Shown: piece after piece, positions 9,962-40,448 of the stretch
Layout: each line of letters opens with the position of its first letter
Position numbering within the stretch: the first letter of the stretch is position 1
Assembly: GCF_000003815.2 (NCBI RefSeq)
Contig: NC_049995.1
Span: 17,249,652-17,313,651 of the forward strand
Length of the DNA: 64,000 nucleotides
Origin: Branchiostoma floridae
Lineage: Eukaryota > Chordata > Leptocardii > Amphioxiformes > Branchiostomatidae
Direction of reading: 5' to 3'
The notes under the pieces: generated by a model
What the model was told of the DNA's origin: nothing
The model's database searches: none
Seen by the model: the letters and a program-made list of their open reading frames with translations, nothing else
Position numbers and translations under genes: made by a program

Positions 9962-10818
9962 ACAAACCAATCGTACATGGCACTGATGAATATGGCATCT
10001 ATGGGTACATAACATGTTGCTACAGTTCAAGGCTAATGTACCTGAATTGAACTCACAAGCAAAATTAATGTTTTAGGACTTTCACTGACTGGTTTCCAGT
10101 TTTCATCTACAATTCAATGAAACAAATATATTTAATGTGAAGAGTGATACTGACTTTGGGGATTTCCTATTTTTTTGGATATTGGAGATTTTTTTATTCC
10201 TACTTTATTTGTTTTACTTGTATTTTTCACAAAATGATGGGGAGCAAAACAGGTGCATAAACACCTTACAAGTTCCCCTGTCATGCACTAAATACAGTAT
10301 CAACAAATAGTTACTGTTACAGTAATAAGTACAGTGCAGAATCAATGATATTTACATGTCCTAGTGAGTTAAATCATATATATATATTATTATATGATTG
10401 TAAATGCAAAAATGTTTGCAGAGGTTTTATGTTGAACTTCACTGTTTTTGCCGTGTCTGCTTCACTGCAAACTCAAAACCGTGGGCAATATTTTCCCAGT
10501 ACAGTATAAGATTGCAGTATAGGGCTTTTTCTTATTGCTTCTCCCATCGCTATGACAGATAAGCGTACCTCGCATCTTGTGTGTCGTCCCAAGTCCAGCT
10601 AGTTGCAAGTTTGGCTTTCCTGGCGCTGTTGCGAACTAAAAACCATCACAAACACTGTCTCCATTTCTCCGCCACCGCAAAATTAAATCCCTGCATAGTT
10701 AAAAGAGTTTACAACAATATCACTTTGTTGACGTACATAGTTTCTTAAAAATGACTCCAAAGTTTGTGAAATGAGACCAGGTAGTTTTTGGTAAAGTTTG
10801 TCCTCACCTGACTCAGGT
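9962..10818. other. spacer without a gene
   Basis: Array spacer closely related to 40900-41760 and 55770-56650. At about 10530-10620 it has an insert containing TCTCCCATCGCTA and CCAAGTCCAGCTAGTTGC that is shared only with 41467-41565. This ties the 3' flanks of the fused gene and the 41761-43090 locus together as duplicates. Confidence 0.45.
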
Positions 10819-13371
10819 TCAGTAGGTGGGAAATATGGAGACTGTGTTCTTCTCTACATCAGTCACTACAAACTGTCCCTGTGGTGCCATGGCAACAGCA
10901 CATGGCATCCTCACGTCAGTAGTGATGTGTTTGCCAAAGTTTCCTGTCTTGTCAAACATCTCCACACGCCTGTTTCGTAGGTCTACTACAATGATGTTAC
11001 CTGCCCTGTCTGTACAGATGCCACCAGGACCCTTCAGCTGACCTTCACCTCTTCCCTCACCCCCAAAACTGAACAGAAACTGACCGTCCTCGTTGTACAC
11101 ATAGACAAAGTGATTGTCACTGTCTGACACAAGAATGTTCCCTTCCCTACCCACAGTGATGTACCGTGGGAACCTCATCCCCTGCTGCTGACCCACAGTT
11201 CTCACAAGTGTCCCATCTGGCCTGTACACCAAAACTTCACCATGCAGGTTGACCCAGTGTCCCGTGGTTTGTATGATGAGGATGTGGTTCCTCCTGGTAT
11301 CCACAGCAACTCCTCTGTACCACTCTGACTCCTGTAGGTCAAACTTCCTCAGCACCCTACCCTGTTTGTTGTACTGCACAGCAAATTGAGCAAACTCTGT
11401 CCTCCCCACCACCCACAGGTTCCCCTTCCCGTCCAGTGCCACATCCTCTGGTTTTATCTTCTCTTCACGTCTTGGCACCACTGTTGGGAACTGTCTTACA
11501 AATGTTCCCTGCAGGGTGAAGACTTGGATTCTCTGGTTATCCCTGTCTGCTACAAAGATCTCCCCTTCTTCTGACACTGTAACACCGGATGGACTATAAA
11601 ACTGTCCTGGCCCAGATCCTGATGTACCAATTGTTGTCCTGTGATATTGAGACTGAGGCTCCCCTTGCCATTGGTTACCATGGCGATGACCCCTCCCCCT
11701 TGCTGCATTAGTAGTAGATGCCAGTGCTGCTGGGATTGGTGCAGGTGCAGGTGCAGGGGCCGAGTGACGATCAAACTGTCCTGTTCCTGATCTCTTTCCA
11801 CCAAATCTTAACCTCTGAGACTGATGCTCTTGTTGCCTGTGGTTACCATGGTGATGACCTGTGCCCCTTGCTGCTGGAAGCGAAGTCTGCTGTTGGAGTA
11901 TCTCACACATATTTGCCGCCATAAGATTGTCTGGTAAACCTGTGACCCCTTGGGGTGGCAGCCTGACCTGCTGACGACAGACAGCACACTTTAAGGTCCC
12001 CCCACTTTCCAGGTTCTCCAGACATTGTGACAGACAGAAGGTGGGAAATATGGTGACTTTGTTATCCGTAAAATCAGTCACTACCAGCTGTCCCTCTGGT
12101 GCCATGGCAACAGCATATGGCCTCTCCATGTCTGTAGCGATGTGTTTCAGAAATCTGCCTGTCTTGTCAAACATCTCCACACGCCTGTTTCCCAAGTCTG
12201 CCACGATGATGTTACCTGCCCTGTCTGTACAGATGCCAAGGGGACCCTTCAGTTGACCTTCACCACTTCCCTCACCTCCAAACTGGAACAGAAACTGTTT
12301 GTCCTTGTTGTACACATAGACACAGTGGTTCTCATAGTCTGACACAAGAAAATTCCCTTCCCCGTCCATAGTGATGTACTGTGGGATCTTCATTCCCTGC
12401 TGCTGACCCACAGTTATCTCAAGTGTCCCATTTGGCCTGAACACCAAAACTTCACCATGTCTGTTGTCCCAGCAGTCTCCTCTGGTAAATTGTGTGATGA
12501 GGATGTGGTTCCTCCTGGTGTCCACGGCAACTCCTCTGTACCAATTTGTCTTCTGTAGGTCAAACTTCCCCAGCACCCGACCCTGTTTGTTGTACTTCAT
12601 TGCAAGGTCAGAGGACACACTCCACCCCACCACCCACAGGTTCCCCTCCCCGTCCATGGCCACATCATGTGGTCTCATCTTCTTTTCACCTGACACGACT
12701 GTTGGGAACTGTCTCACAAATGTTCCCTGCAGGGTGAAGACTTGGATTCTCTGGTTATCCCTGTCTGCTACAAAGATCTCCCCTTTTTCTGTCACTGTCA
12801 CACCAACTGGACGCATGAACTGTCCAAATCCAAATCCCTGTGTACCAAATGTTGTCCTCTGATATTGAGACTGAGGCTCCCCTTGCCATTGGTTACCATG
12901 GTGATGACCCCTGCCCCTTGCTACATTAGTAGTAGATGCCAGTTCTGCTGGGATTGGTGCAGGTGCAGGTGCAGGGGCTGAGTGACGACCAAACTGTCCT
13001 GTTCCTGATCTCTTTCCACCAAATGTCACCCTCTGAGAATGCTGCTCTCTTTCCCTGTGGTTACCATGGTGATGACCTGTGCCCCTTGCTGCTGGACCTG
13101 ACAGCAAAGTCTGCTGTTGGAGTATCTCACACATATTTGCCGCCATGAGATTGTCTGGTAAACCTGTGACCCCTTGGGGTGGCAGCCTGACCTGCTGACG
13201 ACAGTTTGGGCACTGAAAGGTCCCTCCCCTCCCTGCAAGGTCCTGTAGACAGTCCTGACAGAAGGTGTGCTGACAGGGCAGCACCTTGGGCCTGGTGAAC
13301 AGCTCCAGGCAGATGCTGCAGGTCAGTTCTTCTTGGAACTGTGTCCCCAAACTTGACGAAGCAGCCGCCAT
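10819..13371 (-). CDS. double TRIM-NHL fusion: RING-NHL-(half RING)-NHL
   Basis: 850 residues in one open frame. Residues 1 to about 445 form a complete short TRIM-NHL: RING C18/C21/C33/H35/C38/C41/C55/C58, two His-rich linker modules separated by an Ala-Pro stretch, and NHL ending ...VTIFPTF. The frame then runs without a stop into the second half of a RING (FCLSQCLENL...CAVCRQQV), its own linker modules and a second NHL ending VSIFPTY. The junction at about 12034 joins GACAGAAGGTG of a RING to GGTGGGAAATATGG of a gene end. Both parents contain AGGTG, so unequal crossing-over at 5-bp homology removed the stop, spacer and first half of the next RING while keeping frame. The second RING lacks its first ligands and cannot fold normally. 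The result would be one E3-like protein with two propellers. An assembly artefact cannot be excluded. Confidence 0.8.
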   Translation of the reverse strand: MAAASSSLGTQFQEELTCSICLELFTRPKVLPCQHTFCQDCLQDLAGRGGTFQCPNCRQQVRLPPQGVTGLPDNLMAANMCEILQQQTLLSGPAARGTGHHHGNHREREQHSQRVTFGGKRSGTGQFGRHSAPAPAPAPIPAELASTTNVARGRGHHHGNQWQGEPQSQYQRTTFGTQGFGFGQFMRPVGVTVTEKGEIFVADRDNQRIQVFTLQGTFVRQFPTVVSGEKKMRPHDVAMDGEGNLWVVGWSVSSDLAMKYNKQGRVLGKFDLQKTNWYRGVAVDTRRNHILITQFTRGDCWDNRHGEVLVFRPNGTLEITVGQQQGMKIPQYITMDGEGNFLVSDYENHCVYVYNKDKQFLFQFGGEGSGEGQLKGPLGICTDRAGNIIVADLGNRRVEMFDKTGRFLKHIATDMERPYAVAMAPEGQLVVTDFTDNKVTIFPTFCLSQCLENLESGGTLKCAVCRQQVRLPPQGVTGLPDNLMAANMCEILQQQTSLPAARGTGHHHGNHRQQEHQSQRLRFGGKRSGTGQFDRHSAPAPAPAPIPAALASTTNAARGRGHRHGNQWQGEPQSQYHRTTIGTSGSGPGQFYSPSGVTVSEEGEIFVADRDNQRIQVFTLQGTFVRQFPTVVPRREEKIKPEDVALDGKGNLWVVGRTEFAQFAVQYNKQGRVLRKFDLQESEWYRGVAVDTRRNHILIIQTTGHWVNLHGEVLVYRPDGTLVRTVGQQQGMRFPRYITVGREGNILVSDSDNHFVYVYNEDGQFLFSFGGEGRGEGQLKGPGGICTDRAGNIIVVDLRNRRVEMFDKTGNFGKHITTDVRMPCAVAMAPQGQFVVTDVEKNTVSIFPTY

Positions 13372-13489
13372 TTTGTTGTCCTTCCGACCTTCTGCAGTAA
13401 CCCCTCCAAAGCTACAAAACCAGTTTTCAGCCTCAGGCTTAAAAACGGTGCAAACTAAGCTAATTAGCACATAGCTGTACTTGACGTGT

Positions 13490-13535
13490 GTCATCGTGTT
13501 CAGTCATGTGCTTCATAACCTGCTTTATAAATGAT
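13490..13535 (-). promoter_or_regulatory. TATA-like core promoter of the fused gene
   Basis: TTTATAA at about 13523-13530, some 155 nt upstream of the start codon. The surrounding 300 bp is almost identical to the promoter at 1307-1350. Confidence 0.45.
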
Positions 13536-13678
13536 GGCTGACAAAACAACACACTTAACCACAGCCAAGTCTATATGAATTGTATGTGGGAAAATAATGT
13601 TATTTTAATGATGCTCTGGATGCATCTTCTATGCAATATTGAAAGAAAACATGAATCCAATTTGAATATGTGTAACGG

Positions 13679-20568: not shown

Positions 20569-21110
20569 AACACATTCTCAACTAAAACGAGAAATTCTCC
20601 ATACGATATCTGCAGATTGCAGTCACCTGTCTGCAGACTGCATATACCTATCTGCAGACTGCAGTCACCTATCTGCAGACTGCAGTCACCTATCTGCACA
20701 TTGCAGTCACCTATCTGCAGGTGCAGATAGGTATCTGCAGAGAGCAGATACCTGACTGCAGACTGCAGTCACCTATCTGCACACTACAGTAAATGTGTTA
20801 AGACTGCATACACCTATCTGTAGACTGCAGTTACCTATCTGCAATCTCCATACAGGTAAATGCAATCAGTTCCGTCTGTAGACTGTATATTACATCAAAA
20901 TTATGTTAAATTGTCAAGTTAATGTTTACTTACGAAAATAATAGAACATAGAGCCCTGGTAACCTGCATCAGATATGTCATACCTGACTTCTAATTACAC
21001 TGAGTCGAGCAGCTAAAGTGACTTCTGGTGGAAATTTCTCTGCAATGGCTTTCCTGTATTTTGCTTGCCATGCTTGTTTCAAAGGATTTATTGTAATTTG
21101 GACACAGAAA
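20569..21110 (+). repeat. left TIR with CTGCAG-rich minisatellite
   Basis: The outer part, 20620-20850, is built from variants of CTGCAGTCACCTAT spaced about 21-23 bp apart, including an internal inversion (ACCTATCTGCAGGTGCAGATAGGT at its centre). The inner part matches the right TIR less closely (for example TTTCAAAGGATTTATTGTAAT near 21080). Subterminal repeats of this kind are often transposase-binding arrays; that role is inferred. Confidence 0.8.
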
Positions 21111-23420
21111 GTCTCATTGATGAGTTTTTTTGTTCCCATAGACTTCTATGTTATAATTCTTGGTTTACTTGGGTGCATTCATAATGAAGCTACATGTACG
21201 TGAAATTTCAGCAGATTTTTCATTCTATGTTTAGCACATTTACCCTATATCGTGGGAAAAAATTCAACTATACATAGGTTCTTTTTTTTATAGCAATTAC
21301 AAACTGCGATTAGTCAATCCCCACAAAAGGCACTTTTTCGCTGTTAGTGTACAACCGCACCACTCAGAACCCAGGACTGTGTACCTTCGACCTAGCACGC
21401 GGCTGCAAAACTACCTGCTAATTTCTTCAGTTAAAAGCAAGCTTTCACCAATTAAATCTAACTTTTGAGATCGGATCCACTGGAATTTCTCACCGCTAAA
21501 AACACGAGTCCAAGCAATACATGAAATAAAGACTGGTCACTGGGTCAGGAAAACAAATTACAAGTCACATTAGGTCGAATAAAGACATAGACGTCCCAGC
21601 TTTAAGTTTATTTTTTGGCTCGGATCTCTTTTAGGGTACCCACTCAGAGTAATACATCAATGAGACCTTACTTTTAATGTATTAATCAAAAAAATCTATC
21701 AAAGGAAAGAATGTGTTAACATACATAACATTACAGCATTGCAAAATGAATGTGAAATACTTCATTGCAGCTTTTCAGAGAATTAAGTGCTCTAAAAGGA
21801 AAGATTTTGTTTCTTGCAAGATATAGACCCAAGCTGGTCTGGACAGGCTGCCCTGTACCTCCTGTCAGGATATAATCCTGAGGTCCTTGTTATCCTGTCA
21901 TCATTAATTGACCATGACATCTGGCTACTGTCTTAAGTCAACGATGTTCTCTGGGTGTGTGTGTGGGGGGGGGGGGGGGGTCTTGAAATTTGTCTCAAAA
22001 GCAGCATGATATATTCCCAGCACTACAAAAAAATATCACATCAAGTTCCCTATGCACAATGTTTGTTGGGCCTTATGACAGTTTTCAAATTCCCAGGAAC
22101 ACAATACACATATACCATAATACCCTCATTGTTTAGAATAGTAGCAGATGTCACGGCAGGGCACAGACACACTGGACATGATGATTAATTTACAATACTT
22201 CAAGCAGATGTTGGAAAAATATATGATGTTTCCTGACCAGAAGAGGTTCCTCTGACAGCCACTTTTGCTGCTAAAAAACAGTACGATCTTTTACCCCAAG
22301 ATCTGCTTGGACATCAGTGCTTAGCTTCTGTCTTGTCCAATTTGCATTGAAGCTGAGAGTGTATGCCTTTGGGAAAAGGCTTCCCACAGATTCTACTCTT
22401 CACAAACTGTAGACTAGCATTAATATGAGAAAATCTACAGAAGTTTCATTACATTTTCCTCTGTCTATGAGGTGTTTGGAATCTAAAAAATGCAAGAGTC
22501 AACATTCACCATAATCCGTCCCACTGGTAAATATTTACTCTGTAAATTTTCTGGGCAAATATAATCATATTTTTCTGAGTAACAAGGTTAGTATAGAATC
22601 AATCTTAAACTTTGTCAGAGCTTATAGGACCTCAATTTAGAAGGAACTCAAGGGGCTATGTCCCCTATCCTATATTCCAGTTGTGGTCAGTTCCAGGCCA
22701 AGGGAATGCTGCCCTGCCAAATCCCTTAGGGGGTAATACAGACCAGGCACACAGACTCACACAACTTCTTTTGGCTTTGTGGCCTGTAACATGTACATAT
22801 GGCCCAGTGAGACAGAGGAGCTAGTTAGCTCCAAGACAATTTTGTAGAGTAGAGTAGACCTTGACCTATTAAAGATGCACTCATCTTAGGGGGATTGAAA
22901 TTTGAAAGTGTTGCATCAAGTATCAACATGTGTATAAAACAGCGGTAGTCCTTCTCTGTGTTGAGGACAACATGCATATGGGAGTCACCAGGACCAGATT
23001 AGTCATGCTTGGCCTCACATTACAGGAACTAGGATTTTGATGTACAATTCATTTTGAATCTTGAGAGAAAAGACAAGTACTCTACTCTGCAAGTACCCGA
23101 GCATGCCTTAATTAAGATACAATTGACATAAATATCGTAACCATTTTGCTATTACAAAAGGAATTTGTAAATATCTAATATTAGTGAATACTGCCTTGAA
23201 ATGTGTTTGAGACAATTCCCGTATTTGCTTAACTTCATCAGATTCTCACAAACTGGTCTGAAAGTCAGGCAACTGTTGAGCATTCTCAACTGTTGATCAT
23301 TGTCCTGGCCTAATGTCTCTCGGGGGATTTAGAGGAGGACTTTCACCTCTTTTTGACCCTTCTTGAAAGACTGGAGGAGAGTAGAAAAATCTTCCCCTGG
23401 CTCCTGGGAGGGTCTGCATG
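21110..23420. other. interior of the 9.9-kb element, no gene seen
   Basis: AT-rich and without convincing coding frames. It includes a G run at 21966-21980. Stretches near 21830-22030 resemble 25480-25700 (GGCAGGCT, TTAAGTCAACGATGTTCTCTGGG), hinting at an old internal duplication about 3.65 kb apart. Confidence 0.35.
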
Positions 23421-23429
23421 GGGGGGTGT

Positions 23430-24495
23430 TGGTAACGCTTAACAGTGAATTCAGGAGACCCGGTAACGCTTAACGGTAAATTCAGGAGGCCCGGTAACGC
23501 TTAACGGTAAATTCAGAAGGAGTTACAAAGCATTACACTTAAGTAACATCGACGTGCATTACTATTCATACAATGCAAGAGTTAGTTATATGGGGGAAAA
23601 TATTACTCTCCAAGCAGAGGTCGAGTCGCGTAGATATGGTAGTGGTCGGAAAAATTACACCGGCGCTCCTCTTAAGGGGGGGGGGGTCTGGGGGTATGCT
23701 CCCCCGGGAAAATTTTAAAATCAAGACCCTCTTAAATGCTATTTCCTGCATTTTTTGGCAAATTTTGCCGACTGACTAAGCTAGGTTGATTTTGACATTT
23801 TCATCAAATTACACATTGTTATAGTTTTGGCCGTCGACTCCAGAGCCCCTGACATATTTTGCTATTTCGATTCGAGCTCGGAAGGCACGAGGCATTGCAA
23901 TAGTGCGGGGAAATTTCAAAATCTGGACCGTCTGAAACGCCATTTACTGCCTTTCGAAGGACAGCAGATTTTGCTGCAAGACGAAGCTAAATTGAATAAC
24001 ATTTTATTAGAGAGAAAAGTTTTTTTGTGCGAAAACCCACGCCCCTAACATACTTTCGCCATGTCATCGTGAGCGCCAAGGGCGCAAGCCGTCGCAAGGG
24101 AGGTCCGGAGAAACCTCTTTTTTTTTTTTACCAAAACTAAGCTTAGTTTGACACTAAAATCTGTTTTTGAGGGCAACGCTTCTGCAACATATTTTACCCT
24201 GTCCAGAGCCGAAGGCCGGGAGGCTCAGAGAAATTTTGAAACATGGACCCTTTGAAATGCCATTTCCTGCATTTTCAGGGGTTCTATCTGGCATTAGACT
24301 TTGTGTGTATAACGGGTTACGAAGAATGTCTTGGTAACGCTTAACGGTGAATTCGGGATAACAAATAACGATTAACGTTGAATTACAACAAACAATAACG
24401 CTTCACGAAGAATATAACGATTAACGTTGAACTAGAGCAGGTCGGTAACGATTAACGGTGAATTAAAATGGCTTGTAACGCTTAACAGAAAAAGG
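23430..24495. repeat. TAACGCTTAACGG short repeats bracketing a degenerate tandem repeat
   Basis: At least three close copies of GGTAACGCTTAACGG(T)AATTCAG at 23430-23520 and about seven looser copies (TAACGATTAACG, TAACGCTTCACG) at 24320-24490. Between them lie three or four diverged units sharing AAATTTTAAAATC..GACCCT..AAATGCCATTTCCTGC (about 23700, 23905, 24215). A related trace occurs at 28215-28350. No protein recognised. Confidence 0.55.
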
Positions 24496-26017
24496 CATGC
24501 AGCCTCTCTCCTGGAATTCGCACATGCATGGGCCCACACTATTGCACTAGGCCAAATGGTTTGATTGGTGGCACTTGAACACCACTGTTACAATACCCCC
24601 CCCCCCCCCTCCCTTTTTCTTTTTTAGATTCATCCTCGACCTCGACCCTCCAAGTTCGATATTCCTGTCCGGCATACTTAGCCATTACTCACAGGGTCAG
24701 TGTTGTGCAATCACTGAAACAATAGAGGCGAGTAGAAACAGTTTCCTGACTCAAGCGAATTGGAACTGGTGAAACTTGAACTGCTAAGCTACTTGGATCA
24801 ATTTCAAAATTCATTGAACTATAACCCTGTTAGAAAAAGTGGGACACTTTCACAGTCTTCCACTGCTTCCAGAAAAGAAGTCAAACCCCAAAAGCTTAGA
24901 TTGTAGCTCTCAGCAGTCCATATTATTTCTAGAATAGCCACTTGTTTTTACTTGTCCCCATTGTTATCTATACCAATTAAAAGTCTTTAATTTTTTTCAG
25001 TATGTTTACTATATATTCTGCATGTTTCATGTTGCAATTAGGCCTCAGGCAAGAACTTGCAAATAAAACTTTCTATATTAGAATCACAGGGGATAGGCCA
25101 TAGTTGACTTTTGAATTTTGGTTCACCGTCAGTGCCCAGACTAATACTAGTAACTAAGTTGGGGTGCCTCTGAGTTTTACACGAGAGAGTTCCGATCAAG
25201 CTCTGTAGGATGAATATTACCAACGTCCTGGGCAGGCCCTGGTACGTAACATTTTGGCTATGCGCGTAAAGACCGATGGGAATGCGGGAGTAATAGCCAG
25301 AGGAGTGCACTGAAGTCATGTTATTGCAAGACCCTGTGTCTAGGTGAGTTTGTAACATGTACATGTAGCTTGTCATCATCTATATGTGTCTTAAGAAATA
25401 GATATTTCTTTTCTTCCTAGCTAGTAGACATACAGAAGATCAATACCTAAAGATAGATTTTCGTACACAAACTGACTGGGCAGGCTACCTTCTGTGGAGA
25501 AGCTATAAGCAAGGAGGTACCTCCTTGCTATACCCGAGTCCTTAGGTCTGTTATCTTTGAGCAATTGGCCGTGAAATCAAGCTGCTCTCTTAAGTAAACA
25601 ATGTTCTCTGGGGGCTGATCTCAGAACCTCATGAGGGAAGTTATGTGAAGGCCTTCATGGTAGATTTTCCCAGGCCCAACATGATATTCCCAACACTTTT
25701 GACTGGAAAGGCTTGTACTAAAATCTCATTGCTTAGAAAGCTGATGCAGCTTTCATCTCCAAGACTGTAAGTTGACACACCTACACTGTACATTAGGCCA
25801 TAGCAGCCAAGTACTTTATGTTGTAGAGTAGAGCAGGGTTTCTTCGGCCAGGTAGGAAACGGGTGGTGTTGTAGCCTAATGGTTGTACTTGAACAATTGC
25901 AAGTGACACTAGGGATGTGGCCATGACAGTAGTTGTACAGACTGACATTTATGGTGTCTATTTTGAAGATTCAGCCATCTAATGTTTTTTTAGTCATTTT
26001 TTTCCCTATGCCATTAG
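24496..26017. other. interior of the 9.9-kb element, no gene seen
   Basis: Contains a C run at 24594-24608 and a possible SINE piece around 24713-24760 that shares GAGGCGAGTAGAA.CAGTTT with 52290-52320. The 113-codon minus-strand frame at 25038-25379 matches nothing I know. Confidence 0.3.
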
Positions 26018-26025
26018 ACTTCTAT

Positions 26026-26531
26026 TTATTTTATTTATTCATTTGTTCAGCTGTTTACAAACAGCCAGGGCTGCCCAACTAGCCGTAGGCTATTGTCAAG
26101 GGCTAACCCTGTACATGTTCGCACATGTTTGCACACGGCGGGTTATACCGCCCCTTACGGGGTGACACACCCGTCCGGGTGAATGATGTAGATCACCATG
26201 TGGCTGATACGAGACAGAGGTTCGCCAGGCCTCCATCCGGGCGATTTGAAGTGAATCACCAACTCCCGACAGAAGGATTTGCACCAACGCACACCGCACC
26301 ATCCCACGTGTGGGGGTTCTTTAACGTGCATGGGGTGTGGCTCTCCCCATACACGGGACCTCCATTTGACGTCCTATCCGAGGGAAGACTCATTTTTCGC
26401 TTGAGTAAAGTGAGGAAAGTCGTGTAAAGTGCCTTTCCCAAGGACACAAGACCGGCAACACGACAGGCGGATTCGAACCGGCGATCTCTCGGTCACGGGC
26501 CGAAGACACTACCACTGTGCTACGCGGCCCC
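26026..26531 (-). mobile_element. tRNA-derived SINE with conserved central domain
   Basis: About 506 bp on the minus strand. The tRNA-like head has an A box (TAGCACAGTGGTAGTG) and a B box (GGTTCGAATCC) near 26465-26530. The body includes CCTTGGGAAAGGCACTT and the well-spread block with GTTCTTTAACGTGCA, and the tail is AATAAATAAAATAAATAG. It is flanked by the 8-bp direct repeat ACTTCTAT (26018-26025, 26532-26539). It inserted into the 9.9-kb element. Confidence 0.85.
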
Positions 26532-26539
26532 ACTTCTAT

Positions 26540-29500
26540 CACTTTTGCAGTCTGCAGGGGATGCCATCCACAAAATTTACTTGCTGTGGCATTTAAGTGG
26601 AACTTCAAAAGTTTATTCACCCACTACTGTGTAACAAACAGCATTCAATGCTTTTAGTTTTGCTTCAGTTCTACAGGTTTTCAAGTTAGAGTACATGACA
26701 TATTACACAGATACCATGATATCATTACCACTGGTGATTGTATAGATTTGGCAGTAGACCAGGGGGTGTCACTAGGGCACGGGACATCAGGTTATCTTGC
26801 TGACATCTAGGATCTAATCTCTAAACAGATGTTGGGCTAGACAAATGTTGCATGTCCTCATAAGTCTTCTGGAAGTTTCTCTGTAAACCACTACCCCAAC
26901 TTGGAAAGAAGGACTGTCAGAAAACCTAGCTATAGCTGCAGGTAAAAAAACAATGCCATCTTATCTGTTATCATAACCTTTCTTCTAAGGATTGGAGATA
27001 AATTTAGCTTCTTTCTGCTCCAGGACTGCATAGGAGCTAAAAAGGGTGGATACTGGATAACAAGTCAAGTCAAAGTCAATTGCACAACATTTGTAAAACT
27101 GACCAGTACAAAGTAGGGCAAACATACATAGGACTGGTCAGTATTGTTTAAGACAGCTAAAGATGAAAAAGACTTCCACTTACATTTAAAGGACCATAGA
27201 GGGAATCTTCATAATGAAGAGTCTAAAGATCAAGGAACTTATCATAAAAAGAATACTTAGAAGTATGAAGGAGGCACAAACATTCATCATTCTAAAGGAA
27301 AATTTCTTTTTTCTCTTTCTTGATGAGGTGTTAAGAATCCATCTAAAAGTCAGCTTTAATTTAGGGTTTGAGTTATAATCTGTGGAAATCTGTTTAAAAA
27401 AATTGCCTTCAATCTTTGTCCAATTTAAGTGATGGATAAAAGGTAAATTCTATATATATTAATTCTATTCAAGGGGCACTGTGCAGCTCTCATGCACTGA
27501 TGATGCAGTATCTTTTTCTTCAATCTGTGAAAGGGAGAAGTCACTACCAGCCTTCCCCTAGAACAAAGACCCTTACACTGACCCATCCCACATGGGAGGT
27601 GTGGTATTCTCCCACATGCTGGCACAAGCTCAGGCACTGGCAGTGTGTATATCTGGGGTCACCGTAAGGTGGCCACATGTCACCATATCATATTTCAGTA
27701 TAGGTGCCCTCAGTTTGTTCAAACAAGGAGCCTTGGTTCAAACATGTGTGACTCGATGACAGACTCAGATAACTTGTACAGTATTTTTTTTTTAAGGACA
27801 TTTTTCTTTTAACAAGAATTTCCTTTCACAACGCAATAATACTATCTGCACAAATGCATTTTTACTCTGTACATCATCTGAGCAGAACTCCTTGAGGTTG
27901 CCCAGGTACCCTGGGGGCCAGCCGGGATAGGGCAGCTAGGACAGTTAATTGTGGCTTGGCTCCCCAAACAAAACACGTTACGTAGCTACCCGGTCCTGTC
28001 TGGCTCCCAGGCAGGGTAAGCTTTTGGTGATATAAGTAAGTCAATCCTGGCAAAGGCAACAACAAATTCAACATACTTATAAGATACATGTAACTTAACA
28101 TAGTTACTTAAAAGTTATAGACTATAGACCAAAGACATCTACTCTACTTGTTATAGGATCAGTCTTTCAGCCCCTGGGCTTCCAATATACCTTGAAAGTA
28201 ATGGTTTTTAGGGTGACGCTTCCGCAAATAATTTCCTTATGACCAGTGCTGAAGGGGCACAATTTCATGCATTTTCTTGGGTAAAGTTTGTCGGTAGACA
28301 AGTTAAGTTTAATAAATGAAATTTTGATTACGCTTCACGTACAATTCATATCAATTACGCTTGCAGTAAAGTTTCCCAGTGACATGACAAGAGACACAAA
28401 ACAATGACCCCTTGCAGACTCTCTTTCTGTGATCACAAGTTTCTCCACTAAAGTTTCCCCGTGGAGACTGACATGCAGCCAGTGAAAAGTTGGGGAATTT
28501 TATCACAGGCAGATCAATTATACATGGTTTGGTGCACCATAGGAAGGGATTATACATGTAGCCAGGGAAAATTTTTTAGTACATCCTAACTCCAGGTTTA
28601 AAACATGACAAGAATACTTTTATAGGAAGAACATTGACCATGGAAGTGTACACAATAAGCTCATTTTGACAATTTTTTCCAAACCAACTTTCCTGAAACA
28701 TACATTTTGTAAATCTACTCTGCTTCTTAGAAATCATTTCAATGTCATGAATTCAACATTTGCAATAAGTATGTCCTACTTAGAATATTTGTGAGAAAAT
28801 ATGATTTTTGAGGGTTAAAAACTTTTGTTGACCTTTTCCTGACCTGTTTGCTTTCCTTAGGTTTAAGAAAGACTATGTGACCTAGTCTGAACTGTATCAT
28901 ATTTCCTGGTGGACTGGTTGAAGCAGGCTGGACAGTCAACACAAAACAGATGTAATAGCCACAGTACAAAGACCCATCTATTGTAGGCAGTTCGACAATC
29001 TTCAGCCAGACTGACAAATATGACAAATAGTAAAAGATTAAACTTAATGGTCACTTCAGCCTATTTAGAGTCAGACCAAAGATACTAATGAAAATAACAG
29101 ATTTCTTGTTTCTCTATGGTACAAGGTGTGCATACATGTACATGTACATGTCACATGTGTACATGCTGTTATTAAAAGGCAACTTTATGTGTATGAGGAC
29201 AAAAGGGCTTACGGTCAACTCTTCAATAAGAAAACAATAAAGGTAGTTTTGTGATGACTTTTGAGTCTACTAGTACATCCACCAGCCTGAAAGTTTTCTG
29301 CAAGGTTTTCTCTGTCTGAGGCTAAGTGGGGTCCCATCATCACTCACATGGGACTGATACAAATCAATCAGCGATGCCATGTTACACACTAATCCTTACG
29401 TAAATCCAAGCAGCAGCTAAACCAGCAGGGGTGTCAGCTACTGGTGAATGACAAGACTTCAAGCCAGTGGAGATAGGGGAAAGAGTCCACTTACATGTAG

Positions 29501-29939
29501 CTTACATGTAGGACTTTTGTGAATTATGATAAACCTTTTGAATAAAATTTGTTCAAAACTGCGGGACAACTTAAAGAACGTAAGGGTAAGGGTCCTTCCC
29601 GGTGTAAGTGGTTCAAAACATAAAGTCTCAGATGGCCACACCTGGGCAATTGCTGTCATATTGAGGTCACTTGAGTTAGCAAATGGCTGCCACTGCAAAC
29701 CCTTTCAACAGTTCTACTAAAACCAATCATTCATCTGTTCATTTATTCCTTCATTCTGTTATTCAAAGTCTAGTCTGATCTGATTTTATGACTCGCTCTC
29801 AGCCATACTAGTACATGTACAGGTTGGTTATTTGGTATTACTCGAACTCTTGAAAATATCCTATTGGACTGAGAGAGATGCCATTAAAGGTTCTAAAAAT
29901 TACTGGGTATTGTTATATGAGGCAGTGACAAAGTGTTTG
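26540..29939. other. interior of the 9.9-kb element, no gene seen
   Basis: About 3.4 kb of AT-rich sequence without a recognisable coding region or RNA gene. It includes a TACATG microsatellite near 29133-29160. Small frames (27425-27637 and others) show no known motif. Confidence 0.35.
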
Positions 29940-30480
29940 TGTCAAAATTACAATAAACCCTTTGAAATGAGCCTGGCAAAATATAGGAAATACTCAAATA
30001 GCATGATAACAAAGAAATTTTCCGCTACATCTTGAGCCTTCAGCACGTGAGCCGCTGATCGAGTAACTGTACTAATTACACTGTGGTGAGATGTCAGGTA
30101 TTACAGATCTGTTGCAGGTTAACAGGACTCTGTGTGCTATTATTTTCATAGTGAACATTAAGTTGATGATTTTAGGTACATTTTGAACTAGTATACAGAC
30201 TATATTCATATAGACTGCACTCTGATTGCATTCACCTGTATGGAGATTGCAGATAGGTAACTGCAGTGTACAGATAGGTGTATGCAGTCTTAGCACATTT
30301 ACTGTAGTGTGCAGATAGCTGACTGCAGTCTGCAGTGAGGTATCTGCTATCTGCAGATACCTATCTGCACCTGCAGATAGGTGACTGCAATGTGCAGATA
30401 GGTGACTGCAGTCTGCAGATAGGTGACTGCAATCTGCAGATATCGTATGGAGAATTTCTCGTTTTAGTTGAGAATGTGTT
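29940..30480 (-). repeat. right TIR with CTGCAG-rich minisatellite
   Basis: Reverse complement of the left TIR. The outermost 60 bp are nearly identical; the minisatellite here has fewer units. It is read through by the truncated RING frame from 30737, giving a CSHLSAD-type peptide repeat. Confidence 0.8.
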
Positions 30481-30737: not shown

Positions 30738-30873
30738 TTTGTTGTCTTTTCGACCTTCTGCAGTAACCCCTCCAAAGTTACAGAACCGGTTTCAGCCTTA
30801 GGCTAAAAATGATGCAAAGATAGTTAGCACATACTAAGTACCTGACTTGTACAATTACAATGTACGTGTTCAG

Positions 30874-31043
30874 TGTTAACTGGACTCCGATTCCCCTGAT
30901 GCTTGGGAATAAACACGCACACACACAGACGTATTTGTGTATTCACTCAGTCGTGCCTCAAACTAGACTGCCCTCCCCAGCCCCAGTCCGCATGCGTGGA
31001 CTGTTCCATTGGCAAGGGGGGGACAACCATACTAAATCTAACA
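30874..31043 (-). repeat. 3' LTR of the gag-only element
   Basis: 170 bp, near-identical to 33284-33461, with TG...CA ends. The polypurine tract adjoins it at 31044. Confidence 0.88.
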
Positions 31044-31833
31044 TTCCCCCTTTTCTTTTTCTTTGGCTACTCTACATGAATGTTATATATTAAGTTTTAA
31101 ACAATGAAATTTGTTGGCAGTTTATAAAATGGTCTATGATAATTATAACGTTAGACATGTAAAGGTTAAATACTAAGGCTGTAAAAATACTATTGATGAA
31201 CAAATATTTTTACTGCAGTGTAGGCAAAAGAATGTACAGAATGTCATACAATACATGCTTTGCAATATGGTGATACAATAAACTTCTTTCATCAAAAGTG
31301 CCATACAAAATACTTGTCTCATCACAAAATACTTGTCTCATCACAACAGAGTAATACAATATACTGTCTTGTCTCATCACCACAAGAGTAAAGCAATACA
31401 TTCTTCTCACCAATACTTCCCCTTTTCTTTTTTCTTCTTAGAATGTCCATCTGACTTTGAGCGTCCTGATGGTAAAATAATCGCTCTGACCATAAGTGTA
31501 TGTTTTCATCTTAACCAAGCACTCTTCTACACATTTCTTGTAATACAATTGCTTCTCACACAGCTTTTTAGAACATCAAATTTGCGTCTTTCCTCACGAC
31601 AGTCGACACTGATATAAATGTGCCAACACAAACATCTGTGCTCAGAAAAAGAAAAAAACTACTCACACATAGATAATGCATGCTACAAAGTACATATCAA
31701 CCTTGTGCAGTTTCACATCTCTTGTACGTAATAACCTTATAGCTTCACATTTCTTGATAACTCGTTAAACGTTGATCGGTCCATATACCGTAAGAAGATA
31801 GATATGTCCACATGACTGTTTACAACGATCAGT

Positions 31834-32295
31834 TCATGACGGTTCAAAGATGTTCACATATAACACGGATACATATAACACAGTCACTTCTTCCTTGCCT
31901 TCTTTGCTGTTTTCGCTGACATGTGCTTCTGCGTTAGCGTTTTCGTTGCTGTCTTTTATGTTGACTTCATGACTGATTTGGCCTTCTAGGCTTTCAGTTT
32001 CTACTATGACAGACTGTGCTGCCAGCGCCTGTTTTTCCTGACGGCTTTCCAGTTTTTCAAGGCGACCAACCGCGTCCTGGTACTTCTTTGTCAGGCTGTC
32101 AGTCTGGAGAATGACGCTGTTTAGGTCCGTCGCATCCTCTACGGACCCTTCCGACATCATGCACTCGGAAGCACCATGGGCAAACATCACCGTAAACTTT
32201 GTATCTTCAGTCTCTGTTGTGTAGGCCTCCTCTGTCGTCGCATCTGGACATTTCCGAACCAAGTGCCGGAAAGAGCCGCAACCGTGACAACGCAT
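31834..32295 (-). other. gag-type zinc-knuckle part of the LTR element (fossil)
   Basis: Contains a CCHC zinc knuckle, CHGCGSFRHLVRKC (C-x2-C-x4-H-x4-C), as in nucleocapsid regions that bind element RNA, followed by an acidic, coiled-coil-like tail. Fossil part of the element; no host role assumed. Confidence 0.7.
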
Positions 32296-32464
32296 GAAAT
32301 CGCCATTACGATCTTTTGGATTCAGCTTTTCGCCAGCATAATCAGACTTCTGACCCGATCTATACGCCTGGGGGCCGCCATCTTGGAAGTGTCCTGACTT
32401 GTATGCACGGACGCTGCCATCTTGGAAGTGCCCGTTGCGATTTCTAGCAGTGCCTGTCTGTCCA

Positions 32465-33157
32465 CTATACCACTATACCACGGGACCATTTTGTATTACC
32501 GCCACGGGATGTCTGATAAACTTCCGCTTCTGTTACATGTGCAATCTCTTGCTGAATGCCGACTGAATAAGACGAACGTGTCGATACCAGTTCGTCACTG
32601 AACTTTCTTAAGCTGCTTTTTGCTTGTATGAACAGACTAACTTCTTCCTTGGAATAATCTACTCCAGTCATTACGAGCTTGGCCTCTTCTAGAGTAAGGT
32701 TGGCTCGGCGGACAAGTAGTAGACCCAGTACGGACTCAGGCAAGGTCACATCACCGGCTCTGTTCAGTTTGTTATATAATATGTCAAATGTGGAGATATA
32801 CTCACTGATAGTCGTTGTCGGACCACGGCTGTACTTGTCGAAGGCAACGAATGCCTCCCACAGTCGGCCGGTGTTGTCTCTTCGCAGATGCTTGTCCATT
32901 TTGTCAAGTACATTCTTGAATAATTGCTCAGCGGTAAGTTCCTCCTCCGTGAGTTTTGAACCTAAGAATTCCCTCGTCTTGTGCTCATCTTTTGATCCCT
33001 CCGGTAGACTCAGCAGGATTTCAATACCTCGTTTCTTCTTCGGGATGTTCGTGATTTTATTCCACAGAAGCAACTCGAACCTGAACTGTTCGTAGCTTTT
33101 GTTTGCAAGATCAAGCTGTGGAATTTTTGTCCACGCGCCTCCCTCGCACGCCGCCAT
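32465..33157 (-). other. gag-type capsid part of the LTR element (fossil)
   Basis: 230 residues resembling the Copia/UBN2-type gag core: WTKIPQLDLANKSYEQF near the start, ALxxxILLSLPEGS-like segment, and TTISEYISTFDILYNKL followed by LPESVLGLLLVRRANL. This fold packages RNA in Copia-type elements. Assignment is by resemblance to known gag pattern only. Confidence 0.7.
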
Positions 33158-33283
33158 TTTTGGTCAAATCCGCGCCAAAAACACTGCACACAGAATCGTC
33201 GACAGAACCACGTACACAGTACTAGGGGTCCCGTATGCATGACAGTCCGAACTTCACTACTGGAACCACCCTCTGCTACCATT

Positions 33284-33461
33284 TGTTAACTGGACTCCGA
33301 TTCCCCTGATGCTTGGGAATAAACACGCACACACACAGACGTATAGAACAATGTGTATTCACTCAGTCGTGCCTCAAACTAGACTGCCCTCCCCAGCCCC
33401 AGTCCGCATGCGTGGACTGTTCCATTGGCGAGGGGGGGGACAACCATACTAAATCTAACAT
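33284..33461 (-). repeat. 5' LTR of the gag-only element
   Basis: 178 bp, partner of 30874-31043, followed inward by the initiator-tRNA primer-binding site. Confidence 0.88.
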
Positions 33462-38335: not shown

Positions 38336-38454
38336 TTTGTTGTCCTTTTGACCTTCTGCAGTAACCCCTGCAAAGCTACAGAACCGGTTTCAACCTTTGA
38401 CTTAAAATGATGCAAAGCTAATTAGCACATACCTGTACCTGACGTGTACAATTA

Positions 38455-38484
38455 CAATGTATGTGTTCAGTTCTGTGCTTTATA
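38455..38484 (-). promoter_or_regulatory. promoter region of the 36296-38335 gene, interrupted at the TATA box
   Basis: GTGCTTTAT at 38475-38483 is the sister-gene TATA element, but a LINE fragment begins right there. ATAATAATAATAA from the element tail may replace it. About 145 nt upstream of the start codon. Confidence 0.45.
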
Positions 38485-39576
38485 ATAATAATAATCTTTA
38501 TTGCATATTCATGCCCGAGGGCTAAATGCACAGAAGGACCTCATGTGGTCTTATGGATGCAGAGAAAAAAGAAACTTAACTAATACAATGGTTTTAGACT
38601 AGGCTAAGCTATACAGTGATTTTAAACTAGGCTAAATGGAGAGGGAACTAAGACACTATGTGTTACAATCGTTAATGGCTGCATCTAACATGTTCTTCTC
38701 TCTTTTTGAAACACATGGAGACATATTCACATATTGCGTCAATAGCATGACCGTCCGTGCATGACATCAAGTACTTGAATAAGCCTTGTCTTGACATTTT
38801 CTTATAATTGTTGTCTATTCGTATGGCATTGTATAGGGATTGGCGTTCGTATTCATATAATGTACAATCTAGTAAAAAATGTGTCTCGTCTTCGATATAC
38901 AAGTGGTCACAGAATTTACATGTTCTATCATTTAAAGGAGTGCGGTTATGCCTGCCGGATTCTATATGTAACGGATGGTCACTTATGCGAAATCTACACA
39001 TAGCTCTGCGATGTTCAAAGCTTGAGATGCTAAGATATGTTTCTCTTTCATATGTTTCTTTGAATGTTTTGTACGTCCTCAATTTGTTTCCCTGGTTTTC
39101 TTTTCGTCCAATCGCTTGTAGTTCTGAATGGAATCTTTGGATGAAAATATCTTTCAACCTTTGCTTTAGTTGATTTAGATGAGTGGGTATGTTAGAGTGA
39201 CCGTTTATATACAGGTAGGCAAAGCCGGACTCCTCTAAGAGTTTCCTTACATCAGATAACCAGCAGGATGTTTTACGACTATCTAGTTCCTGCTGTACCA
39301 TGTAAGCTTCATATTGAAGACTACCTGTGTGCACTTCGTTGGCTAATCTAAAATAATAATTATACATTCTGCATTGAGCTTCAATCCACAAGGGGAAACG
39401 CCCCAGTTCCGCTCTACTTGCAAAATTACTAGCGTTCCTTCGAACACCTAGGATGTATTTACAGAATTTCAGATGGACGGACTCTAAAGGGGATTTGTCA
39501 TCCAATTTGCTACTACACCAGACTTCAGATCCATACAATAAAATAGGTAGGACACATATGTCAAACAATTTGCAAT
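38484..39576 (-). mobile_element. LINE 3' fragment (RT C-terminal region)
   Basis: About 1.1 kb, 5'-truncated, with an (ATT)n-type tail at the left end. The coding part (about 39575 to 38672, some 300 residues) is the region after the RT catalytic core: LPILLYGSEVW, LESVHLKFCKYILGVRR, and near the end a zinc motif CKFCDHLYIEDETHFLLDC. The frame is open. Clade not assigned. The open frame continues upstream into host spacer, and that part is not element sequence. Confidence 0.85.
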
Positions 39577-40448
39577 GCTGCCTTATGAAATGGTAGGTGA
39601 CAAAACAAACACACTTAACCATACCCAACTCTATATGCGGTGTATGTACATGGGAAAATAACCTACTAGCATTTTTTAATGATGCTCTGGATGCATCTTC
39701 TATGCAGTATTGATAGAAAACATTAATCAAATTTTAATATGACTTTATTGTGTACAAACGAATTTGTACTTTTTCAAGTTATTCCACACAGAACATAGTA
39801 CTTGTAGGTGAATACGCAGTTCGTTTCACCTCACAAGTGCAAAGTATAAGACCAAATATTTAGGGTGAGTATCAATTAGGCACAGGTTTCTGTATGCAGG
39901 ACTGAAGGAAGTAATCATTTCAAAGTGGAACAAGTTTCACACTCAAGTTATTTACTCCAAGAGAATTCTTTGGTTTGTAATTTGCATAACCTTTAAACTA
40001 CCTTATAGGGGCATAACACACCAGGTTTATACTAAAGAGTAAATGCTGCATATACAGACAGATTAAATAATGTTTGGGCTTGAGAACTGCTTAATCATAC
40101 CAGGTCCTGGTCCCTGCAGTAATGGTATGTTCCATGCAGGGTTGTCTCCAGCTTCCAGATTTTGTCCATCAAGCTCATTGGAAGGCGTTTAAATCATGAC
40201 TAATGTTTTAGGGTGTTGCAAAGAAAAAGGCAAAATTTGATGCAAATGTCTTATAGCAAATGGAAGCCCATGTTGTAAACTTTTGTTGTGAAATCTGTCA
40301 TTTCAGGCTTGTATAAAAATACATTTCGTGAATTTCATGTCATGAAAATCAGATTTATGGGCAGACCAGGTATATTTTTCTCTATCCCAATAGTTTTGTC
40401 AGAAGTCCTTTTGATAAAAGCTCTGAAACAAAGCAAAATTTTACATCT
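39577..40448. other. spacer without a gene
   Basis: Array spacer homologous to 54830-55480 and 33491-34230. No gene seen. Confidence 0.4.

Follow-up and report, generated by a model that had tools for sequence, protein, structure and literature searches.

A candidate RING gene with two NHL propellers in a single reading frame, and other multi-propeller loci, in the lancelet Branchiostoma floridae

The gene described here lies on the minus strand of a 64,000-nucleotide stretch of the Branchiostoma floridae genome (assembly GCF_000003815.2, contig NC_049995.1, positions 17,249,652 to 17,313,651; hereafter the window), within an array of genes resembling TRIM-NHL genes. From the ATG at 13371 to the stop codon at 10821-10819, a single frame of 850 residues runs through RING, linker, NHL, half RING, linker and NHL; measured from stop to stop, the same frame covers 894 residues (13503-10819). 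It is probably a gene whose frame is open throughout, coding for a RING protein that resembles ubiquitin ligases and bears two NHL propellers of six blades each, and we think it fairly likely that RING proteins with a pair of recognition faces arise by repeated joining in frame.

Layout of the fused gene

The fused protein starts with MAAASSSLG. Pfam identified one RING (residues 18-57; zf-RING_UBOX, E 1.5e-12, residues 18-55) and eight NHL stretches, and NHL was found in each half when the two were scored separately by profile. The first propeller finishes with KVTIFPTF and is followed by CLSQCLENLESGGTLKCAVCRQQ, the second half of a RING, which keeps only what we take to be the last four metal-ligand cysteines; a second linker resembling the first leads into a complete second propeller, finishing with TVSIFPTY and a stop. 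This is also the ending of most other genes of the array, while in the fusion Phe replaces the terminal Tyr of the first unit and the frame reads on. An earlier note on this DNA had described two RING-NHL units, the second with half a RING, in one 850-residue frame of unstated strand, with loss of the upstream stop; both points are borne out. The features on which the following sections rely are:

13372..13674, minus strand: 5' flank, identical at 301 of 303 bases to the sequence upstream of gene 1186-14
10819..13371, minus strand: open reading frame of the fusion (850 codons and the stop)
13201..13320, minus strand: complete RING finger, residues 18-57 (Pfam)
12040..12861, minus strand: first NHL propeller, residues 171-444, with Phe for the usual terminal Tyr, running into the half RING
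12039..12043, minus strand: junction word CACCT (AGGTG on the plus strand), common to gene ends and RINGs
11968..12042, minus strand: half RING, residues 444-468, CLSPC type
11647..11967, minus strand: second linker, of low confidence in the structure model
10822..11646, minus strand: second NHL propeller, residues 576-850
10944..11493, minus strand: tract 98-100% identical to the NHL of gene 42624-41761 in each of nine 150-bp steps, pointing to gene conversion or exchange
10802..10818, minus strand: CAG/GTGAGG after the stop, a splice-donor-like word

By its sequence the fusion is not a canonical TRIM, because the B-box and the coiled coil are missing. No B-box was detected by Pfam in either half up to E 0.001, whereas window gene 58560-56659 contains one (E 1.2e-9); in the alignment, the region lying between B-box and linker in full-length neighbours is missing from the fusion, no coiled-coil predictor having been used. 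The name TRIM given in the note is therefore loose. The short genes 1186-14 and 63478-62159 likewise align without B-box and coiled coil, in contrast to four full-length neighbours. As in the TRIM-NHL / RING-NHL group, the protein ends in a six-bladed NHL propeller; the group has a single propeller, whereas here two share one frame. About 12 bases past the stop, a splice-donor-like CAGGT(G/A)A is present in nine of the ten gene ends in the window, which suggests an intron in the 3' untranslated region or a lost downstream exon; the word of the first unit has vanished together with its stop.

The junction

The fusion reads ...ATATTTCCCACCTTCTGTCTGTCA at the join. Gene ends read ...ATATTTCCCACCTACTGA in nine of ten cases in the window, the tenth being CCCCCCTACTGA, and the counterpart in the RING reads ...CAGCACACCTTCTG in all nine window RINGs, in one common phase. 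On the left of the junction the gene ends match through CCCACCT, and on the right the RINGs match from CACCTTCTG onward; the exact shared word is CACCT, with agreement at eight of nine positions across CACCTnCTG, and the join therefore falls in the AGGTG where the note had placed it. Since CACCTTCTG (9/9 window RINGs) and CCCACCTACTGA (9/10 gene ends) have the identical codon phase, exchange at this point preserves the frame between almost any two members.

Microhomology of at least 5 bp was found at 0.7% of 2,016,000 modelled joins (8 tails x 9 RING regions) and at 0.38% of the 322,560 that are in frame, a rarity that favours a microhomology-guided event. It was not accepted as proof of mechanism: five gene pairs inspected singly hold 35-50 shared runs of at least 5 bp each, including 4-8 that would allow an in-frame join, and a single event is not enough to decide the matter; none of the six longest shared runs listed for each pair (6-9 bp) is usable in frame. 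The note had seen here direct evidence of non-homologous or microhomology crossing-over; the shared word is present, but the claim is too strong, because 5 bp could equally be left by unequal exchange, by a deletion that brings neighbours together or by a template switch inside a single gene, and the parents have since been obscured by further exchange. When the 301-base junction region was compared with the whole genome, the window alone spanned both sides (one of 40 scored matches, 162 candidates). In the 513-Mb genome (431 contigs) the 19 bases across the junction occur once exactly and never with one mismatch; with two mismatches there are 16 hits, versus 6 for the reversed control.

Other multi-propeller loci in the genome

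The window and 20 stretches of 10 kb around matches to the junction region, a non-random sample, were surveyed with RING and NHL profiles; five further match places lay outside this survey. Two further two-propeller loci, L034 and L028, were found among the 20 stretches. L034 (C16:15.99 Mb) is a frame of 1209 codons, free of stops and N, which encodes a RING, a B-box (Pfam), a Pro-Ala-rich linker, NHL, a second Pro-Ala linker and NHL. Its inter-propeller join, SIFHN/SCCEVLQQQT, lies ahead of the second Pro-Ala linker, and each propeller is the best match of the other among 36 domains. The linker preceding each propeller (L034, 5766-9392) is a long Pro-Ala-rich repeat of APAPxSAAP-like units. 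At L028 (C17:18.95 Mb), NHL is joined at ISVF/QPTDT into the linker behind a coiled coil.

A protein search (best 53 of 1061 candidates scored, 73 matches) added L039 (C16:18.80 Mb) and L040 (C17:18.79 Mb). L039 is RING-less and has four head-to-tail propellers, an 837-codon frame holding two whole ones and part of a third, while the rest of the third and the fourth lie in another frame after a single frameshift. L034 has the SCCEVLQQQT join once and L039 has it twice, which makes three places in all (3 matches, with all 5 candidates scored). The two loci agree at 88% over 2.9 kb; the two-propeller unit was therefore copied as a whole. The ratio of nonsynonymous to synonymous substitution rates (dN/dS) of the duplicated L034 unit is 0.39.

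L040 belongs to a different NHL family, and its 929-codon frame contains coiled-coil-like sequence, repeats and two propellers, which differ with a dN/dS of 0.43 at a dS of 0.46. A frame for a death effector domain (DED; Pfam E 2.7e-16) lies 0.8 kb upstream on the same strand and is presumably an earlier exon of this gene; no RING was found in the 2.5 kb upstream. The scored relatives of L040 form an array at C17:18.31-18.91 Mb, with frames of about 530-730 codons (best 50 of 882 candidates); among the matches listed, one more frame, of 501 codons, matches L040 from the middle of the first NHL through the linker to the end of the second. This L040/L041 array is large, its NHL genes carry coiled-coil-like sequence and EYRGEKPPGGWPQ repeats, and all but two of the listed genes (best 50 of 882 candidates scored) are on one strand. 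A search of viral contigs (viral_contigs) yielded no relatives.

In-frame joining of NHL units, as read from these frames, recurs elsewhere in the genome, also within a second NHL family, and yields chains of two to four propellers; uniqueness of the two-propeller architecture, for which the note knew of no other TRIM, has to be abandoned. With further joins of this sort in one genome, and as many as four consecutive propellers, fusion appears to be a repeated route to new receptors and not a single accident; the broken relatives indicate that such genes also decay.

Variability of the propellers and predicted structure

Loop labels were derived from the NHL register, itself consistent with the strands that DSSP assigns in the structure model; the BC and DA loops are taken here to form the top face of the propeller. 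In the 11 NHL domains of the window these loops hold 23 of 25 hypervariable columns, and the ratio of the proportions of nonsynonymous and synonymous differences (pN/pS) is 1.18 in them, 0.54 in strands and 0.51 in bottom turns. In 25 domains outside the window (those of the 36-domain set minus three shorter than 240 residues, plus three from L039, with those of L040 excluded), 28 of 31 hypervariable columns fall in the same loops. Since pS is 0.246 in the BC/DA loops versus 0.130 in strands, both selection and the exchange of old variants may contribute. The propellers of the fusion itself differ at the top loops by 44.7 nonsynonymous differences at 180 sites, and the protein should therefore display two different faces. 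Ligand binding is assigned to the upper surface in passages of PMC9634614 and PMC5908797, the former also reporting diversity around the opening of that surface. The AlphaFold model builds both propellers confidently; the NHL of homologues was aligned to the second, the first being predicted without their help. Both propellers are complete, and the two propellers in one protein described by the note are upheld.

Exchange with neighbouring genes and age of the join

Comparison of the fusion with its window neighbours in 150-base steps revealed a mosaic. The 5' flank is 98-99% like that of gene 1186-14, and the RING together with the beginning of the linker is 96-98% like 63478-62159 or 30737-30481; for the first propeller the best neighbour per step is only 81-93% alike. 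The half RING is 91% like 6116-4257, and the second propeller is 98-100% like 63478-62159 and further on 98-100% like 42624-41761, its last part falling to 84-88% (step 10993-10844). The 3' flank agrees with that of 42624-41761 at 729 of 804 aligned bases, and the second propeller shares with this gene 143 consecutive polymorphic sites, a run not reached in 2000 shuffles. On this pattern, neighbours have exchanged sequence with the fusion or with parts of it, and its parent genes therefore cannot be read off. The two linkers have in common a 15-base stretch and substitutions missing from gene 63478-62159; a sister relation between them was considered, and the pattern is again mosaic.

The join looks recent. 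The half RING has a pN/pS of 0.27-0.36 versus three CLSPC-type RINGs, which give 0.25-0.32 among themselves, and is thus no less conserved than working RINGs of its type; it is one residue short and its AGRG loop is altered, though most others keep AGRG. Dating of the join by decay of the half RING was tried, and the lack of visible decay argues for youth only. A retroelement hot spot upstream was also considered and was dropped for the fusion, as the element there begins at 13675, off the site where others are interrupted.

Origin and possible role

In the proposed course of events, the 3' end of a short RING-linker-NHL copy would have been fused, with the frame kept, to a point midway through a RING, either that of another copy or its own, at the word CACCT(n)CTG, shared in the same codon phase by nearly every array gene; subsequent exchange with neighbours would then have rewritten the RING, the linkers and the second propeller. 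One RING would thus bear two propellers with differing hypervariable top faces, and a single ligase could bind a pair of ligands, or grip one ligand at two sites, by bivalent or bispecific capture. Full-length TRIMs pair through their coiled coil, a pairing for which this capture may stand in. What the analysis shows is the frame, the junction, the predicted folds of both propellers, the sequence exchange, the variability of the top-face loops and the recurrence; that the fusion is transcribed, acts as a ligase, binds bivalently and serves in immunity is inferred.

An origin by internal tandem duplication of one gene, through template switching or unequal exchange between alleles and without fusion of two genes, is a possibility to which we give somewhat less than even chances. 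A single backward switch at CACCT yields exactly the observed product, both linkers carry the features missing from 63478-62159, and the propellers of L034 are mutual best matches; conversely, the RING parts of the fusion differ in type (CQDC versus CLSPC) and its propellers are not mutual best matches, although conversion could explain both. That the frame was created by the assembly, from collapsed genes or joined chimeric reads, seems very unlikely: the tandem array is highly similar and 8 of the 20 surveyed stretches contain N, L028 among them, but the window is free of N, the 5 bp shared at the join seem too little for collapse by an assembler, and propellers are linked by different junctions at other loci, one such junction being present three times.

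Several observations weigh against a maintained two-faced protein. The undecayed half RING indicates a young gene, which would be open even if useless, and the open frame is therefore no proof of function. Between the two propellers dN/dS is 0.78, without strong constraint on the pair (pairwise range 0.62-1.17 among the 11 window domains), and their pN/pS is 0.91 in top loops, 2.06 in bottom turns (few sites) and 0.50 in strands; among the 11 domains the C strands as a class reach 1.32. In the AlphaFold model the RING part is poor (predicted local distance difference test, pLDDT, below 50) and the predicted template modelling score (pTM) is 0.41. In L034 the first RING cysteine is Ser, L028 is frameshifted with its first propeller broken near an assembly gap, and L039 carries its frameshift; in the window, gene 43090-41761 is frameshifted (2/2 indels versus the second propeller are not multiples of three), gene 9303-8437 is RING-less and a further gene is split by a 9.9-kb element. 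The undecayed half RING, the dN/dS of 0.78, the lost RING cysteine of L034 and the broken relatives and neighbours would suit a neutral, short-lived recombination by-product of a fast-churning array, open only through youth. We regard that as rather unlikely, given that frames of 1209 and 929 codons at two other multi-propeller loci are open from end to end, that the L034 unit was duplicated with its architecture intact at a dN/dS of 0.39, and that the propellers of L040 have accumulated their differences at 0.43.

If expressed, the joined genes would encode proteins that resemble ligases and carry two distinct recognition faces, both evolving fast; the joins show how tandem arrays can add binding sites in one step. 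More tentatively, the genome may repeatedly line up NHL propellers with hypervariable tops one after another behind signalling domains of RING or DED type, in-frame tandem joining giving multivalent, multi-specific innate receptors of two to four propellers, a modular alternative to repertoires made of separate genes only.

Comparison with known proteins

By sequence and fold, the RING and NHL of the fusion are of the TRIM2/3/71 type found in the TRIM-NHL proteins (TRIM2, TRIM3, TRIM71, Brat, Mei-P26), from which it differs in its two propellers and in the absence of B-box and coiled coil. Malin (NHLRC1), as presented in passages of PMC3503706 and PMC3160408, is similarly a RING-NHL protein without B-box; it has one set of six NHL repeats, whereas the fusion has two propellers. 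Passages of Marin 2012 (PMC3503706) describe B. floridae Subfamily C TRIMs with two MATH domains and a short intronless open reading frame, with a few similar ones, ascribed to a recent recombination; the C-terminal domain is doubled in both lancelet cases, MATH there and NHL here, and a doubled NHL is not mentioned in those passages. The fish class IV TRIM arrays (finTRIM, bloodthirsty; PMC3137616) are likewise expanded, with hypervariable ligand-binding loops, but use B30.2 and not NHL, and the passages concerned describe no doubled domains. A TRIM with two NHL propellers was not encountered in the open-licence literature searched, which does not prove that none exists.

Many novel lancelet domain combinations have been argued to be gene-prediction errors, with chimeric proteins refuted by expressed sequence tags (passages of PMC4967905), against the claim of extreme domain shuffling in lancelet (passages of PMC4284660). 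The architectures reported here lie in single uninterrupted frames and need no splicing model, and are therefore direct test cases for this dispute.

Neighbouring genes in the window

In gene 43090-41761 a small frameshift parts the RING/B-box frame from the NHL frame, and its NHL is the nearest relative found for the second propeller of the fusion. In gene 9303-8437, MAAASSSLG leads directly into the linker; the start of L039 is similar (MAAYQPEKV). The 9.9-kb element at 20569-30480 has 60-base perfect inverted ends, 88% alike further in, and splits a TRIM-NHL gene into a RING (30737-30481) and a remainder (20568-18923). At 30850-33461 and 38447-39578, retroelement-like sequence interrupts the shared 5' flank of two genes at a similar distance from the ATG. 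Finally, the linker of gene 38335-36296 contains additional sequence of linker type together with a piece of NHL (profile columns 172-196).
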